Origin: Candidatus Rokuibacteriota bacterium
Lineage (GTDB): Bacteria > Methylomirabilota > Methylomirabilia > Rokubacteriales > JACPHL01
Direction of reading: 5' to 3'
DNA: 7,542 bases
NCBI GenBank assembly: GCA_016188625.1
Contig: JACPHL010000297.1
Span: 1-7,542 of the forward strand
The notes under the pieces are model-generated. The model had not been told where the DNA came from. It worked only from the letters and a program-made list of their open reading frames with translations, and ran no database searches. How positions within the stretch are numbered: the first letter of the stretch is position 1; every line of letters starts with the position of its first letter. Below, piece by piece: positions 2,534 to 7,542 of this stretch. The position numbers and the translations under genes were made by a program.

Positions 2534-3413
2534 ATGGCACGCAGAGACGCGCCGGACCATCCGGGCGATTCCGAGAGGCCCGCGCGGGTATCCCGGCGTC
2601 GCTTCCTCGGGCTTGTTGGGGCGACCGCGGGGGAGCCGGGCCGAGGGCAAGGCGGCGCAAGCGGCCCCGCGGCGGCTCCGGCGGTGGGCCATGGTCATCG
2701 ACCTCCGCGCCTGCGACGGCTGCCAGGATGAGCAGGCCCCGCCCCGGTGCACGGCGGCGTGCATCCAGAGCCGCTACGTGCCGGAGCCCATGGAGTGGAT
2801 CGAGTGCTACGAGAAGGAGCTGCCCGGCGGAGGCACCCAGTTCATCCCCACGCCCTGCCAGCAGTGCCAGAACGCCCCCTGCGTCAACGTCTGCCCGGTG
2901 GGCGCGACCTGGCACACGCCGGAAGGAACCGTCCTCATCGACCAGGAGCGCTGCATCGGGTGCCGCCTCTGCATGGCCGCGTGCCCCTACGACCGGCGCT
3001 TCTTCAACTGGGGCGACCCGCCGCGACCGCCGGAGACCGCCTTCGTGCGCTACAGCCCGGAGAACCAGGTCGGGGCCCCGCGGGGCACGGTGATGAAGTG
3101 CGACTTCTGCCCGGAGCTGGCACGCGCGGGCTGGATCCCCTACTGCATCCAGGCCTGCCCCCACGGCGCGCTCTACTGGGGCGACCTGGAGGAGGACCTC
3201 GCCACCAACGGGAAGGAGGTCGTGGTGCTCTCCCGCTTCCTTTCCGAGCACCACGCCTACCGGTTGAAGGAGGAGCTGGGCACGCGGCCGAGGGTCTACT
3301 ACGTCCCCGGCCACGGCCAGAACGCCGGGCGCGACCCCCAGCGGCGGGGGCGCCACCCCACCCGGTGGCCCTGGAAGGGGAAGGCCAGGAGATGGGCGCG
3401 ATCGGGCCGGTAG
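2534..3413 (+). CDS. Tat-exported four-cluster [4Fe-4S] ferredoxin-like subunit (DmsB/PsrB/NrfC family), frameshifted near the N-terminus
   Basis: Electron-transfer subunit expected on the outer face of the membrane, bound to the NrfD partner encoded next. ATG 2534 has GGAGG (2521-2525) eight bases upstream. It begins with a twin-arginine motif, SRRRFLGLVGATAG (about residues 20-33). The frame then fails: a run of five G at 2629-2633 carries one base too many. Skipping one G gives a 292-residue protein. In corrected numbering the 16 cluster cysteines are complete: C60/63/72/76, C108/111/116/120, C140/143/146/150 and C189/192/204/208, in the usual DmsB/PsrB order. An internal ATG at 2691 (MVIDLRACDGC) has only a weak GGTGGG before it and would give an unexported protein. 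The predicted Tat hydrophobic region is short. The end overlaps the NrfD gene by 22 bases. The frameshift may be a sequencing error or true inactivation. Confidence 0.88.
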
Positions 3414-4834
3414 AGGCGTTCCGCAGGCGGCTGGAGGAGCGGGCCCTGGCGCCCCTGACCCGGACGGGCAGGGGCTACTACCTCCTCGTCGGCGGCCTGC
3501 TCCTGGTCGTGGCCTGGGGGCTCTACGCGTACACCTCCCAGCTTAGGGAGGGCCTCGTCGTCACCGGGATGCGCGACCGGATCATGTGGGGGCTCTACAT
3601 CACGCTGTTCGTCCTTTTCATCGGCATCAGCCATGCCGGGACGCTGATCTCGGCCATCCTGCGGGTCACCAACGCCGGCTGGCGCGCGCCCATCACCCGC
3701 ATGGCCGAGTTCATCACCGTCGTGGCCCTCATGGTCGGGGCCCTCATGCCGCTCGTGGATCTGGGGCGCCCGGACCGGATCCTCAACCTGCTGCTCTACG
3801 GGCGCTGGCAGTCGCCAGTCGTCTGGGACCTCCTCTCCATCACCACCTACCTCACCGGGAGCGTCATCTATCTCTATCTCCCCCTGATCCCCGACCTGGC
3901 CCTCTGCCGCGACCGGCTACTCCAAGGGGCGCCCCGCTGGAGGCGGCGCTTCTTCCGGGTGGCCTCCCTGGGCTGGCGCGGCACCCCACGCCAGCGCCGG
4001 CTGCTCGGCAGCGCCATCGGCATGATGATGGTGCTGATCATCCCCGTCGCCGTCTCGGTCCACACGGTCGTCTCCTGGATCTTCGCCATGACGCTCCGGG
4101 AACCGTGGGACAATCCCATGTTCGGCGCCTACTTCGTGGCCGGGGCCATCTTCTCCGGGATCGCCGGCATCATCCTCCTCATGGCCTTGCTGCGGAAGAT
4201 CTATCGCTTCGAGGAGTACATCACCGCCCGCCACTTCGTGAACCTGGGGTACATGCTGGGCGCCTTCGTCCTCATCATGATCTACTTCAACGTCTCCGAG
4301 TACCTGACCACCGGGTACAAGATGAACGAGGAGGTGGCCTTCCATTTCCGCCAGCTCTTCGCCGGGGAGCTGGCGCCGCTCTACTGGTTCTACCTGCTTG
4401 GTGGGCTTCTGGTCCCCGGGCTCCTCATCCTCCTGCCGGCCACCCGGAGCGTGGCAGGGATCGTCACGGCCGCGGTCCTGGTGACCCTGGGGATGTGGGC
4501 GGAGCGTTACTTCATCGTGGTGGGGGGGCTCCGGGTGCCGCTGATGCCGTACGAGGCGGCCAGCTACGCGCCCACCTGGGTCGAGTGGTCGATCATGGCG
4601 GGGGCCTTCGCGGGCTTCGGCCTGATCATCGCCCTCTTCTGCAAGCTCTTCCCGCTCATCGCGGTCTGGGAGGTGGCGGAGCACCACGAGGAGGAGGCGG
4701 TCCGCGTGCCCAGGCGGGTGGCCCTGGCCTGGGCGATGACCCGACCCGAGGGCCCGGAGCGGGCCGGAGCGGAGTGGCCGGAGCCGGTGGCGAACCTGGA
4801 GGACACTCCCGTCCTCGGCGGAGGGCGGCGGTGA
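3392..4834 (+). CDS. NrfD/PsrC/ActC-like integral membrane quinone-interacting subunit
   Basis: The 480-residue protein has about ten hydrophobic segments (near 28-48, 62-88, 100-122, 136-166, 205-235, 242-270, 278-306, 325-350, 353-378 and 396-428). NrfD-family proteins anchor Fe-S partners and exchange electrons with menaquinol or ubiquinol, without haem. The segments MWGLYITLFVLFIGISHAGT, LVDLGRPDRIL, VVWDLLSITTYLTGSVIYLY with LIPDLALCRD, SVHTVVSWIFAM and FVAGAIFSGIAG resemble ActC of alternative complex III more than short NrfD/DmsC types, and the length also fits ActC. ATG 3392 overlaps the Fe-S gene; GGGGAAGG lies about eight bases upstream, with AGGAG directly before the ATG. The stop overlaps the next GTG start (GTGA). 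The cytoplasmic tail after about 430 is charged and Pro/Glu-rich. ActC identity is inference; a PsrC/TtrC/SoeC-like role is the alternative. Confidence 0.88.
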   Translation: MGAIGPVEAFRRRLEERALAPLTRTGRGYYLLVGGLLLVVAWGLYAYTSQLREGLVVTGMRDRIMWGLYITLFVLFIGISHAGTLISAILRVTNAGWRAPITRMAEFITVVALMVGALMPLVDLGRPDRILNLLLYGRWQSPVVWDLLSITTYLTGSVIYLYLPLIPDLALCRDRLLQGAPRWRRRFFRVASLGWRGTPRQRRLLGSAIGMMMVLIIPVAVSVHTVVSWIFAMTLREPWDNPMFGAYFVAGAIFSGIAGIILLMALLRKIYRFEEYITARHFVNLGYMLGAFVLIMIYFNVSEYLTTGYKMNEEVAFHFRQLFAGELAPLYWFYLLGGLLVPGLLILLPATRSVAGIVTAAVLVTLGMWAERYFIVVGGLRVPLMPYEAASYAPTWVEWSIMAGAFAGFGLIIALFCKLFPLIAVWEVAEHHEEEAVRVPRRVALAWAMTRPEGPERAGAEWPEPVANLEDTPVLGGGRR

Positions 4835-5400
4835 GGCCCCTGGTCGCCGGATCGCGGATCGCCTCCCTACTAGCCCTGGCTACCCTCTCGGTAGCCGGCC
4901 TGGCTCCATCCGCGGGGGAGCGACCGGAGACCCTCCTCGATCTGCGGGTCCCCGCAGCGGCCAACGCGGGGGAGGAGCTGGAGCTTCGGGCGCGCCTCAC
5001 CGATGCCGGCGGCGCGCCCATCCCCGGCGTCCTGGTCGGGTTTTACAGCCTCGCCGAGTTCGCCGGGGTTTCGGGCGAGGTGATGCTGGGCGAGGGCGTC
5101 ACCGGCGCCGATGGCGTGACGACCTTGCGGTATGTCCCCCGGCGGGAGGGGGAGATCATGCTGGCCGCCCGCTTTCCGGGGAGCCCCGCGCACGGGCCCG
5201 GCCGGGCGATGGGGACCCTGTCGGTCGGGCCCGGGCCGCCGCTCTACCGGGAGACGCCCTGGATCCGCGTCCCGGGGATCGTCTGGGCTCTGGTCGCGTT
5301 GCTGAGCGCGGTGTGGGCCACCTACCTGAGCGTCATGGTTCTGCTGCTCCTGATCGCGCGGGACGGGCGGGTGGCCGCGCCGGAGGAGGTACGACGATGA
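4831..5400 (+). CDS. Membrane-anchored periplasmic Ig-like (beta-sandwich) protein of unknown function
   Basis: The 189-residue protein starts at GTG 4831, which overlaps the NrfD stop (GTGA) and has GGAGGG at 4820-4825. It has a signal sequence (about 1-28, with the LLALATLSVAGLAPSAG region). One Ig/transthyretin-like domain follows at about 36-132, with the typical pattern LRVPAAANAGEELELRARL, GAPIPGVLVGFYS, GADGVTTLRYVP and GEIMLAARFPG. A TM segment lies at about 148-175 with a short charged cytoplasmic tail. This architecture suggests a structural subunit or chaperone-like tether on the periplasmic side of the NrfD complex. I recognise no family beyond the fold-level resemblance to bacterial Ig-like or carboxypeptidase-regulatory domains. 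Its place between the NrfD and cytochrome genes, with coupled translation on both sides, argues that it belongs to the same complex. Confidence 0.75.
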   Translation: MRPLVAGSRIASLLALATLSVAGLAPSAGERPETLLDLRVPAAANAGEELELRARLTDAGGAPIPGVLVGFYSLAEFAGVSGEVMLGEGVTGADGVTTLRYVPRREGEIMLAARFPGSPAHGPGRAMGTLSVGPGPPLYRETPWIRVPGIVWALVALLSAVWATYLSVMVLLLLIARDGRVAAPEEVRR

Positions 5401-5702
5401 AGACGAAGGGGATGGTGGCGGCGATGACGCTCGCGGCCCTCCTGGTCGCGTGGCCCGGCGCCCCGCAGGCCGGGGAGAAGGACGGGTTCGTCGCGGTGGT
5501 GGGTGCCGCGCTGGAGGCCCTGAAGGCGGAGGCGAAGGCGGGAGACGCCCAGAAGGTGGTCGAGCTGATGCGGAAGGCGCGGGAGATGGCCCCGGACGCC
5601 CACGCGCGGGAGCACGCGGACATGGTGATCCAGCTCCTCGAGTACCGGCAGCTCGACAAGGCCCGGCGGGCGATGATGCACCTCGCCCGGGAGCGGCACT
5701 GA
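5397..5702 (+). CDS. Small exported helical protein of unknown function
   Basis: The 101-residue protein starts at ATG 5397, which overlaps the previous stop (ATGA) and has GGAGGAGG at 5382-5389. It has a clear signal peptide (MKTKGMVAAMTLAALLVAWP, cleavage expected after PQA near residue 25). The mature part of about 75 residues is rich in Ala, Lys, Glu and Arg and predicted almost wholly helical: helices near 30-47, 50-65, 68-83 and 85-100. There is no CxxCH, so it is not a c-type cytochrome. Met and His cluster in the second half (M58, H69, H73, M76, M93, M94, H95, H101), which could bind a metal or non-covalent haem as in small four-helix proteins, but this is speculation. I do not recognise the family. 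The co-directional, overlapping position makes it a likely accessory subunit of the redox complex. Confidence 0.72.
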   Translation: MKTKGMVAAMTLAALLVAWPGAPQAGEKDGFVAVVGAALEALKAEAKAGDAQKVVELMRKAREMAPDAHAREHADMVIQLLEYRQLDKARRAMMHLARERH

Positions 5703-5712
5703 AGGGGGCGCC

Positions 5713-6237
5713 GTGGATCGCGGCGGTCGATACCTCGTTCCTGTCGCCGGGGCGGTGGCCGTGGCCGGCCTCGCCGCGCTCCTCATCGTGCAGGTCGTCT
5801 GGCGACCGTGGAGCGACATCGACCGGAGCTGGCGGACCCACCTGAACCTGAGCGAGGCGGTGCCGCCAGGGTACAGTCGGTCGCCCGCCGCGTACGTCGG
5901 CGGTGAGGGGGGCCTCATGGCCGCCTGGCAGCCCGACCCGGCGACCGCCACGCTGGGGCCGGAGGGGCGACGCCCCTACGTCGCCAGGGGGTGCGCCAGC
6001 TGCCACGGTCTGGACGCCCAGGGCGGGCTCTTCGGCCGTCCGCTCGCCGGCCTCGCCGTCCGCGACGTGGTGGAGGAGGTGCGAGCCCCGTCGGGCCGGA
6101 TGCCGGCGTACTCGGCCCGGGACCTCGACGACAGGGAGCTGGAGCAGATCGCGGCCTACCTCCGCAGTCTGGGCAGCCTGGGCGATCGGACTCCGGAGCG
6201 GGGCGCGGAGACCGCCGCCCTTTCCGACCGCCAGTAA
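5713..6237 (+). CDS. Membrane-anchored monohaem cytochrome c
   Basis: The 174-residue protein starts at GTG 5713, with GGGGG (5704-5708) four bases upstream and 10 bases after the previous stop. An N-terminal TM anchor at about 7-30 (YLVPVAGAVAVAGLAALLIV) is followed by a linker, then a class I cytochrome c domain from about 85 to 155. The haem-binding CASCH is at C94/C97/H98 (YVARGCASCHGLDAQ). The likely axial Met is M130 in GRMPAYSARDL, and a C-terminal helix ELEQIAAYLRSL closes the fold. It would be periplasmic and carry electrons from or to the Fe-S/NrfD pair, comparable in role to ActE-type subunits. The residues WQPDPATATLGPEG before the domain are a flexible linker. It is the last gene of the operon. 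No recognisable terminator follows; the convergent regulator stop is only 30 bases away. Confidence 0.88.
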   Translation: MDRGGRYLVPVAGAVAVAGLAALLIVQVVWRPWSDIDRSWRTHLNLSEAVPPGYSRSPAAYVGGEGGLMAAWQPDPATATLGPEGRRPYVARGCASCHGLDAQGGLFGRPLAGLAVRDVVEEVRAPSGRMPAYSARDLDDRELEQIAAYLRSLGSLGDRTPERGAETAALSDRQ

Positions 6238-6267: not shown

Positions 6268-6918
6268 TTAGCGGCGGAGCCCCAGGAGGACGGCGTAGCG
6301 CATCAGCTCGGCGCGGCTGTGGAGCCCGAGCTTCTCGATGATGTGGGCCCGGTGGGAGTGGATGGTGTGGACGCTCCGGTGGAGCTCTGCGGCGATCTCC
6401 TCGCTGGTATAGCCCTGCGCGATGAGGGCCATGACCTCCTTCTCCCGCCCGGTGAGCCGCGCCACGCGGGCCGCTTCCTCGCCCCTCCCGGTGAGCTGGA
6501 GGAACGCCTTCACCAGGCGAGCCACCATGGAGGAGTGGAGGAAGATGCCGCCGCGGGCGACCTCCCGCAGGGCCGCCATCAAGTCGCTCGAGGCGCTCTC
6601 CTTGAGGACGTAGCCCCCGGCGCCCGCCTCCAGGGCCTGGAAGAAGTATTCGTCGCCGCCGTGCATGGTGAGGATGAGCACCCCGACGTCGGGCAGCCCC
6701 TTGCGGAGGCGTCGGGTGGCCTCCAGCCCGTTGCCCGGCATGGTGATGTCCAGGGCGATGACGTCCGGCTGGCACTGCCGCGCCTGCTCCAGGACCTCCT
6801 GGGCGGTGGCCGCTTCGCCCACCACCTGGAAGTCGCCCTGGGCCTCCAGGAGCTGCCGGACCCCCTCGCGGAACAGGGTGTGATCATCGGCCAGCAGGAC
6901 CCGGATCTTACCCTTCAT
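6268..6918 (-). CDS. NarL/FixJ-family response regulator (receiver plus LuxR-type HTH)
   Basis: The 216-residue protein has a receiver domain at residues 1-120: acidic pair D11/D12 in LLADDHTLFREG, phospho-acceptor D57 in IALDITMPGNGLEA, T84 in ILTMHGG and K106 in GYVLKES. A LuxR/GerE helix-turn-helix lies at about 150-212 (LTGREKEVMALIAQGYTSEE, then IAAELHRSVHTIHSH). It is a DNA-binding output regulator activated by the kinase encoded just upstream. ATG 6918 is set by GGAGG (6929-6925) six bases before it, inside the kinase 3' end; the two genes overlap by 11 bases, so translation is coupled. A longer frame to 7035 exists but is a shadow of the kinase. The loop after D57 reads MPGNGLEA, one residue shorter than the common MPGMNGLEA form. 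The targets are unknown; the facing redox operon is a candidate. Confidence 0.92.
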   Translation of the reverse strand: MKGKIRVLLADDHTLFREGVRQLLEAQGDFQVVGEAATAQEVLEQARQCQPDVIALDITMPGNGLEATRRLRKGLPDVGVLILTMHGGDEYFFQALEAGAGGYVLKESASSDLMAALREVARGGIFLHSSMVARLVKAFLQLTGRGEEAARVARLTGREKEVMALIAQGYTSEEIAAELHRSVHTIHSHRAHIIEKLGLHSRAELMRYAVLLGLRR

Positions 6919-7542
6919 CCCGCACCTCCAGGGGGACCTCGACGCGGACGCGGGTCCCACCCCCCAGGCGGGAGGCGATCTGAAGCCGCGCCCGGATGAG
7001 GTCCGCCCGCTCCTGCATGCCCTGCAACCCCACACCGGCCCGGGGGTCGCGGGGGCGGCCGGGCATCTCGAACCCCCGTCCGTCGTCCTCGACGACGCCG
7101 GTCAGGCTCGTCGGCGTGAAGTCGATCTGGACGCGCGCGGTGCGGGCCTTTGCGTGCCTGGCGACATTGGTGACCGCCTCCTGCAGGATGCGGAACAGCG
7201 CGGTCTCCGTGGGGGGGTGCAGCCGGCGGACCGCGCCCGTCACCAGGAAGTCGAGCTTGACGCCGGCCGGCGTCAGCCGCTCTTCCGCATAGGCCCGCAG
7301 GGCGGGGATCAGGCCCAGGTCGTCCAGCGCCGTGGGCCGCAGGTCGGCGATGACGCGCCGGATCTCGGCCAGGGTGCGCCCCCCCTGCGCCAGGGCGCGG
7401 TCCAGCAGCTCCCGCGCGCGTTCCTGGCCGGGGGGAAGGCTCTCCCGCAGAGCCGCCATCTGGACTAGCCTAACTTCCGCGCTTCCGGAAACGGAGTGCT
7501 GCCATTTCAACCACTTGCGCCCCTGTTGAGTGACTATCGTGA
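6908..7542 (-). CDS. NarX/DegS-type sensor histidine kinase, 5' end off window and H-box degenerate or missing
   Basis: The frame is open from the right edge to the TAA at 6910-6908 (211 codons). From about 7460 downward it is a good HisKA_3/HATPase_c kinase. A dimerisation helix reads MAALRESLPPGQERARELLD, then EIRRVIADLRPTALDDLGL. The N-box is FRILQEAVTNVARHAKA, the G1 box is EDDGRGFEMPGR, and the glycine-rich GVGLQGMQERADLI and GGGTRVRVEVPL follow. The partner is the NarL-type regulator, overlapping by 11 bases. Upstream of 7460 the family's (R)ELHD.(L/V).Q motif is not seen: the only His at the right place is in WQHSVSGSAEV (H codon 7498-7496), lacking the following Asp. Base composition and codons (TTG, AAA, GTT, CTA) also differ there from the rest of the gene. 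Sensor domains, if any, lie outside the window. The kinase as read may not autophosphorylate. Confidence 0.85.
   Translation of the reverse strand, partial: TIVTQQGRKWLKWQHSVSGSAEVRLVQMAALRESLPPGQERARELLDRALAQGGRTLAEIRRVIADLRPTALDDLGLIPALRAYAEERLTPAGVKLDFLVTGAVRRLHPPTETALFRILQEAVTNVARHAKARTARVQIDFTPTSLTGVVEDDGRGFEMPGRPRDPRAGVGLQGMQERADLIRARLQIASRLGGGTRVRVEVPLEVRDEG

Follow-up and report, generated by a model that had tools for sequence, protein, structure and literature searches.

A conserved FeS-NrfD-Ig gene set without a catalytic subunit: a candidate molybdenum-free redox module in Chloroflexota, Actinomycetota and a Rokubacterial contig

Which electron transfer can an iron-sulfur protein and a quinone-binding membrane protein carry out when no catalytic subunit is encoded beside them? 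The question is raised by five plus-strand genes, overlapping or separated by short gaps, at positions 2534–6237 of a 7,542-nt contig, here called the window (the whole stretch of DNA that was analysed). The window comes from an 84%-complete MAG whose order relatives include Rokubacteria. The features considered in this study are as follows.

2534..3413, plus strand: gene for a Tat-exported type of Fe-S protein (4x[4Fe-4S]) whose reading frame is broken in the assembly: the Tat motif is read in the frame of 2534, the Fe-S body in that of 2613
2590..2645, plus strand: site of the frame break in the Tat segment, 44 nt shorter than in locus L065
3392..4834, plus strand: predicted NrfD-type quinone-binding membrane protein with 10 TM helices
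4831..5400, plus strand: protein with a signal peptide, an Ig-like domain and a C-terminal TM helix, kept in 63 of 64 testable loci
5397..5702, plus strand: small exported helical protein, specific to the window locus
5713..6237, plus strand: membrane-anchored mono-haem cytochrome c (motifs CASCH and GRMPAY)
6271..7035, minus strand: LuxR/NarL-type response regulator, start probably further in; the same regulator type stands beside many related loci
6911..7540, minus strand: histidine kinase (HisKA_3/HATPase_c), truncated by the contig end

The compact co-directional layout described in the initial annotation is borne out by the junctions. The Fe-S gene stops at 3413 and the NrfD ATG is at 3392; the NrfD stop (4834) and the GTG of the Ig gene (4831) overlap likewise, as do the Ig stop (5400) and the ATG of the helical gene (5397), and the latter gene ends at 5702, before the cytochrome c GTG at 5713. 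The exception is the Fe-S gene, which is not a single open frame. The initial annotation also left out the minus-strand regulator pair (6271–7540), though it is part of the conserved neighbourhood. As had been stated, neither a molybdopterin gene nor genes for ActA, ActD or ActF are found in the window. Assignment of the Fe-S, NrfD and cytochrome proteins is supported by NCBIfam and by Pfam (Fer4_11, 1.2e-18; NrfD, 2.2e-36, 126.5 bits with a cut-off of 25.8; Cytochrome_CBB3, 2.4e-10), and the Big_1 match of the Ig protein is weak (8.4e-6, under the curated cut-off). The opposite strand encodes, upstream of the operon (1352–2071), proteins with NfeD and SHOCT domains.

Species genomes were scanned with the Fe-S alignment, and the best 80 of 351 confirmed candidate relatives were analysed. 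These 80 loci belong mainly to Chloroflexota and Actinomycetota, and the carriers of the gene set are uncultured soil and groundwater bacteria. NrfD adjoins the Fe-S gene in 79 of the 80. The Ig and haem-c genes were counted only in the 64 loci having at least 4 kb of right flank, where they were found in 63 and 49 cases, respectively. Recurrence of the FeS-NrfD-Ig arrangement in several phyla exceeds chance; this trio is the stable core, to which the cytochrome c is added in about three quarters of the loci. The 15 of 64 loci with no detectable cytochrome c fall mostly into a more distant subclade, so the electron acceptor may differ there. In several loci of this subclade a lipoprotein and a protein of about 530 aa with a TIG domain take the place of the cytochrome. 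A TIG-like lipoprotein of about 530 aa, together with a lipoprotein of 200–300 aa, follows the operon in about a dozen loci (L072:13575-15161, L126, L131, L135–L140).

The two envelope proteins that had gone unrecognised in the initial annotation thus fare differently. The Ig-like one is conserved. The helical one is local: no homologue of it was detectable in the 80 related loci, its Pfam matches are weak (HrpB1_HrpK, E 0.05), and it does not belong to the conserved set. For the Ig protein, a modelled family member supports the Ig-like sandwich fold, and the fold search with the model of an Ig-cytochrome c chain returned generic Ig folds only. Such chains, with the Ig protein and the cytochrome c fused, occur in several Actinomycetota (L101, L104, L107). 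At two other loci, L070 (7495–9792) and L077 (7435–9741), NrfD and the Fe-S protein are joined in a single chain across a Tat-like twin-arginine segment, so that the Tat signal comes after ten membrane helices. These natural NrfD-FeS and Ig-cytochrome c fusions provide direct evidence that the gene products act within a single assembly.

The NrfD protein was compared with characterised members of its superfamily. Its residues D120, S138 and D143, conserved in 97–100% of the family (S138 in 100%, D120 in 97%), align with the quinone-site positions given in PMC8076601. The positions aligned with ActC quinone-site residues Ser164 and Asp169 are retained, as are the half-channel residues. ActC His139 is replaced by Asp (D120) and ActC Asp253 by Ile (I227). 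DsrP, QrcD and others typically have Asp at the former position, and in QrcD an Asp and a Ser of the same type were found essential when tested by mutation. The features of an NrfD/PsrC module are present: an adjacent multi-cluster FeS subunit, the quinone-site Ser and a protonatable residue in TM2. The ActC-like protein with ten helices proposed in the initial annotation agrees with the model of a family NrfD, which has 10 long helices and matches ActC. The ActC chains are the nearest solved ones both by sequence and by fold (TM-score 0.81–0.83 of the target); the fold comparison uses the modelled L070 fusion, which is of middling confidence (pLDDT 67) and yields no reliable interface. PsrC was not matched among the solved chains (phmmer, E<=1).

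A quick NrfD tree was built with ActC, DsrP, sister loci and E. coli NrfD as references. The family forms a group of its own (49 of 50 rows, SH-aLRT 95), beside which lie a Mo-linked sister group (96), ActC (100) and DsrP (98); the window protein pairs with that of L065, and E. coli NrfD has a very long branch. The placement asked of the initial proposal was thus obtained in part: of the types listed there (ActC, DsrP, PsrC, TtrC, SoeC and QrcD) the tree covers the first two, and the family belongs neither to their clades nor to the Mo-linked sister clade.

FeS/NrfD pairs had been taken in the initial annotation as normally serving either a Mo enzyme or alternative complex III (ACIII). Against this premise stand NrfCD, QrcCD, MccCD and DsrOP, which serve neither. 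According to Duarte et al. 2018 (PMC6303296), the FeS/NrfD module may also function on its own, together with soluble proteins of the periplasm. In the fetched flanks a molybdopterin gene was found at 3 of 80 loci, 4 to 8 kb away and never inside the operon, and ActD was found at none of the 80 (tblastn). The expectation that the genes would stay together without a molybdopterin gene thus held, the helical gene excepted. A QrcA-like gene stands at 1 of the 80 loci, near a separate Mo gene, compared with 18 of 20 sister loci.

Comparison with the known systems was made on gene content, model cut-offs and clade, and membership in ACIII, Qrc, Dsr and CISM was rejected. ACIII (ActABCDEF) provides the nearest solved structure, and differs in that the operon has neither ActD nor a second unlike NrfD, carries the two substitutions relative to ActC and falls into a separate clade. 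QrcCD pairs the same two proteins and also has Asp and Ser at its quinone site, whereas the operon's NrfD scores 60.2 bits with the QrcD model (cut-off 570), and QrcA and QrcB are not beside the operon. DsrO and DsrP of DsrMKJOP are the best NCBIfam models for the Fe-S/NrfD pair, but their scores of 157.6 bits (cut-off 200) and 130.3 bits (cut-off 350) are below threshold and the DsrP clade is separate. In contrast to CISM molybdoenzymes of the Psr, Ttr, Arr and Soe type, the operon has no molybdopterin catalytic gene. NrfCD of NrfABCD is likewise a Mo-free FeS and NrfD pair passing quinol electrons to a c-type cytochrome; the operon lacks NrfA and NrfB and has the Ig-TM protein and the mono-haem cytochrome instead.

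The sister NrfD clade corresponds to Qrc/Arr-like Mo clusters (L034–L052), whose NrfD is about 50% identical and has the same quinone-site residues. They differ in having an 800-aa molybdopterin subunit (ArrA/PhsA/QrcB-like), a QrcA-like multihaem cytochrome and a 4-haem cytochrome, and their FeS protein is about 36% identical. Clusters of this type are present in many related genomes (L034–L052; L057, L058), with no named equivalog matched, and at least two partial copies occur in the window's own MAG. In clusters of Methanoperedenaceae an NrfD is encoded beside a 4Fe-4S protein and cytochromes, and a menaquinone to cytochrome c link was proposed (PMC7327174). By their description, rather than by sequence comparison, those clusters are set apart as multihaem, and an Ig protein is not mentioned.

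Given the conserved gene set, the fusions, the retained residues and the lack of Mo or ACIII genes nearby, we propose that the operon encodes a Mo-free membrane redox module connecting the quinone pool with periplasmic one-electron carriers; we assign this reading a probability of about 0.6. NrfCD is thought to work by passing electrons from quinol through an Fe-S chain to a cytochrome, and by analogy the module is best read as working like NrfCD or QrcCD. The minimal quinol:cytochrome c oxidoreductase put forward in the initial annotation thus agrees with the best reading, in view of genes kept together with no molybdopterin gene and of the separate NrfD clade. Quinol would bind at the P-side site of NrfD and be oxidised there. 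The exported Fe-S protein, with its four clusters, would then relay the electrons to the mono-haem cytochrome c anchored in the membrane, in some lineages with a cupredoxin or an EB_dh-type (haem b) protein as intermediate; from the cytochrome they would go on to terminal oxidases or periplasmic reductases. The probable role of the Ig-TM protein is to dock the cytochrome to the FeS/NrfD core. Complex formation, the direction in which electrons flow, the coupling to protons and the function of the Ig domain are inferences.

The direction could also be opposite, with a cytochrome c or an extracellular donor such as Fe(II) reducing quinone, and with cytoplasmic proton uptake as in QrcABCD. QrcCD, which acts as a cytochrome:menaquinone oxidoreductase and has an Asp where the operon's NrfD has one, offers a precedent, and multihaem genes stand near a few loci. 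Direction cannot be given by sequence, but haem-copper oxidases are present in most carriers, and with these the plain direction is from quinol to cytochrome c; we regard reverse flow as quite improbable.

Returning to the proposed quinol-oxidising module, the content of 46 carrier genomes was considered. Haem-copper oxidase is present in 44 of them, cytochrome b in 39 and ActD in 10. As carriers usually have cytochrome b or ACIII, the module is normally extra to complex III. Replacement of complex III as a rule was rejected, since 43 of the 46 carriers also have cytochrome b or ActD; the three having neither are G000, G157 and G160, at least one of which is incomplete. It is a long shot that the four proteins (FeS, NrfD, Ig-TM and cytochrome c) alone constitute an additional kind of complex III, a separate minimal quinol:cytochrome c oxidoreductase that conserves energy and would, in some lineages, be the sole link between quinol and cytochrome c.

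The FeS/NrfD module has a central place in respiration, anaerobic as well as aerobic, and there is debate over whether it conserves energy (PMC6303296, PMC13059093). The initial annotation regarded the operon as the best candidate for an undescribed system; as a new kind of system it does not stand, the module being already known. The gene set is instead a conserved, apparently undescribed variant of that module, the window copy of which is possibly broken. No published description of the FeS-NrfD-Ig-cytochrome c set was found in the literature searched, mostly non-subscription papers. A widespread version that lacks a catalytic subunit and occurs in abundant uncultured Chloroflexota and Actinomycetota would offer a stripped-down test system for quinol oxidation and proton coupling by NrfD, and would account for part of the electron transport in these carriers.

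Genes flanking the operon vary. A histidine kinase family and a NarL/LuxR regulator family are each present in 47 loci, and the window has the same pair; this adjacent two-component system probably controls expression of the operon. EB_dh (PF09459), the family to which the haem-binding gamma subunit of ethylbenzene dehydrogenase belongs, stands beside 17 of 80 loci, a cupredoxin beside 11, and either of them beside 28. The nearest solved chain to the EB_dh proteins is subunit C of nitrite oxidoreductase.

The EB_dh genes adjoining 17 operons bear on the possibility that the module is an adaptor giving quinol electrons to, or taking them from, a Mo enzyme encoded elsewhere (for example a periplasmic Nar/Nxr, or another type II enzyme with an EB_dh gamma subunit). 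In several carriers there are Mo enzymes that are Nar-like or of type II, in some cases with an EB_dh gene nearby, and in certain carrier genomes many type II enzymes are encoded elsewhere, which makes a partner in trans possible for those. Yet the Mo content varies widely, with plentiful type II enzymes in some carriers and weak matches or none in others, so the gene set is not explained by any one Mo partner. In the G179 genome the type II Mo profile finds nothing, and in the Acidimicrobiia genomes G172, G173, G174 and G178 the single EB_dh copy is apparently beside the operon and matches to that profile are weak. We consider an adaptor function unlikely. On one 370-kb contig of a Chloroflexota MAG (G149:C22, the contig of L066) about ten type II DMSO-reductase-like alpha genes were observed, and similar expansions are present in G163, G164, G170 and G189.

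The state of the window copy was considered separately. The expected Tat-type 4x[4Fe-4S] protein is recognisable, as the Tat motif SRRRFLG (from 2534) and all 16 cluster cysteines, present in every family member, are there, but the Fe-S body is read in another frame than the motif. Alignment with the nearest orthologue, L065, places the missing 44 nt in the Tat hydrophobic core; at related loci the frame is intact. Judging from the reading frames, the gene is either a degenerate copy or an assembly error, and because of the frame break the window copy may be non-functional. That the operon is a decaying or mis-assembled remnant with no function in its organism is a possibility we hold as doubtful. 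Both the deletion with its frame break and the rarity of the Ig gene in the phylum (2 of 95 genomes, namely the window's own and G018, in which the operon lies across two contigs) are in its favour. The downstream genes, however, are open, NrfD retains all key residues, and an error in the MAG assembly is equally possible.

The nearest relative of the window operon is that of Chloroflexota L065 (78%), so lateral transfer of the operon is likely. A plasmid search for NrfD returned distant NrfDs only. The response regulator and the kinase are 77% and 66% identical, respectively, to the pair beside the G018 operon; being G018-like while the operon is nearest to Chloroflexota, the regulators may predate the operon as residents. 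A mis-binned contig is not favoured, given this regulator and a neighbouring TreT whose nearest counterpart is in the order relative G053 (57%). Downstream of the L065 operon, a lipoprotein (L065:6670-7896) consists of three near-identical helical repeats.
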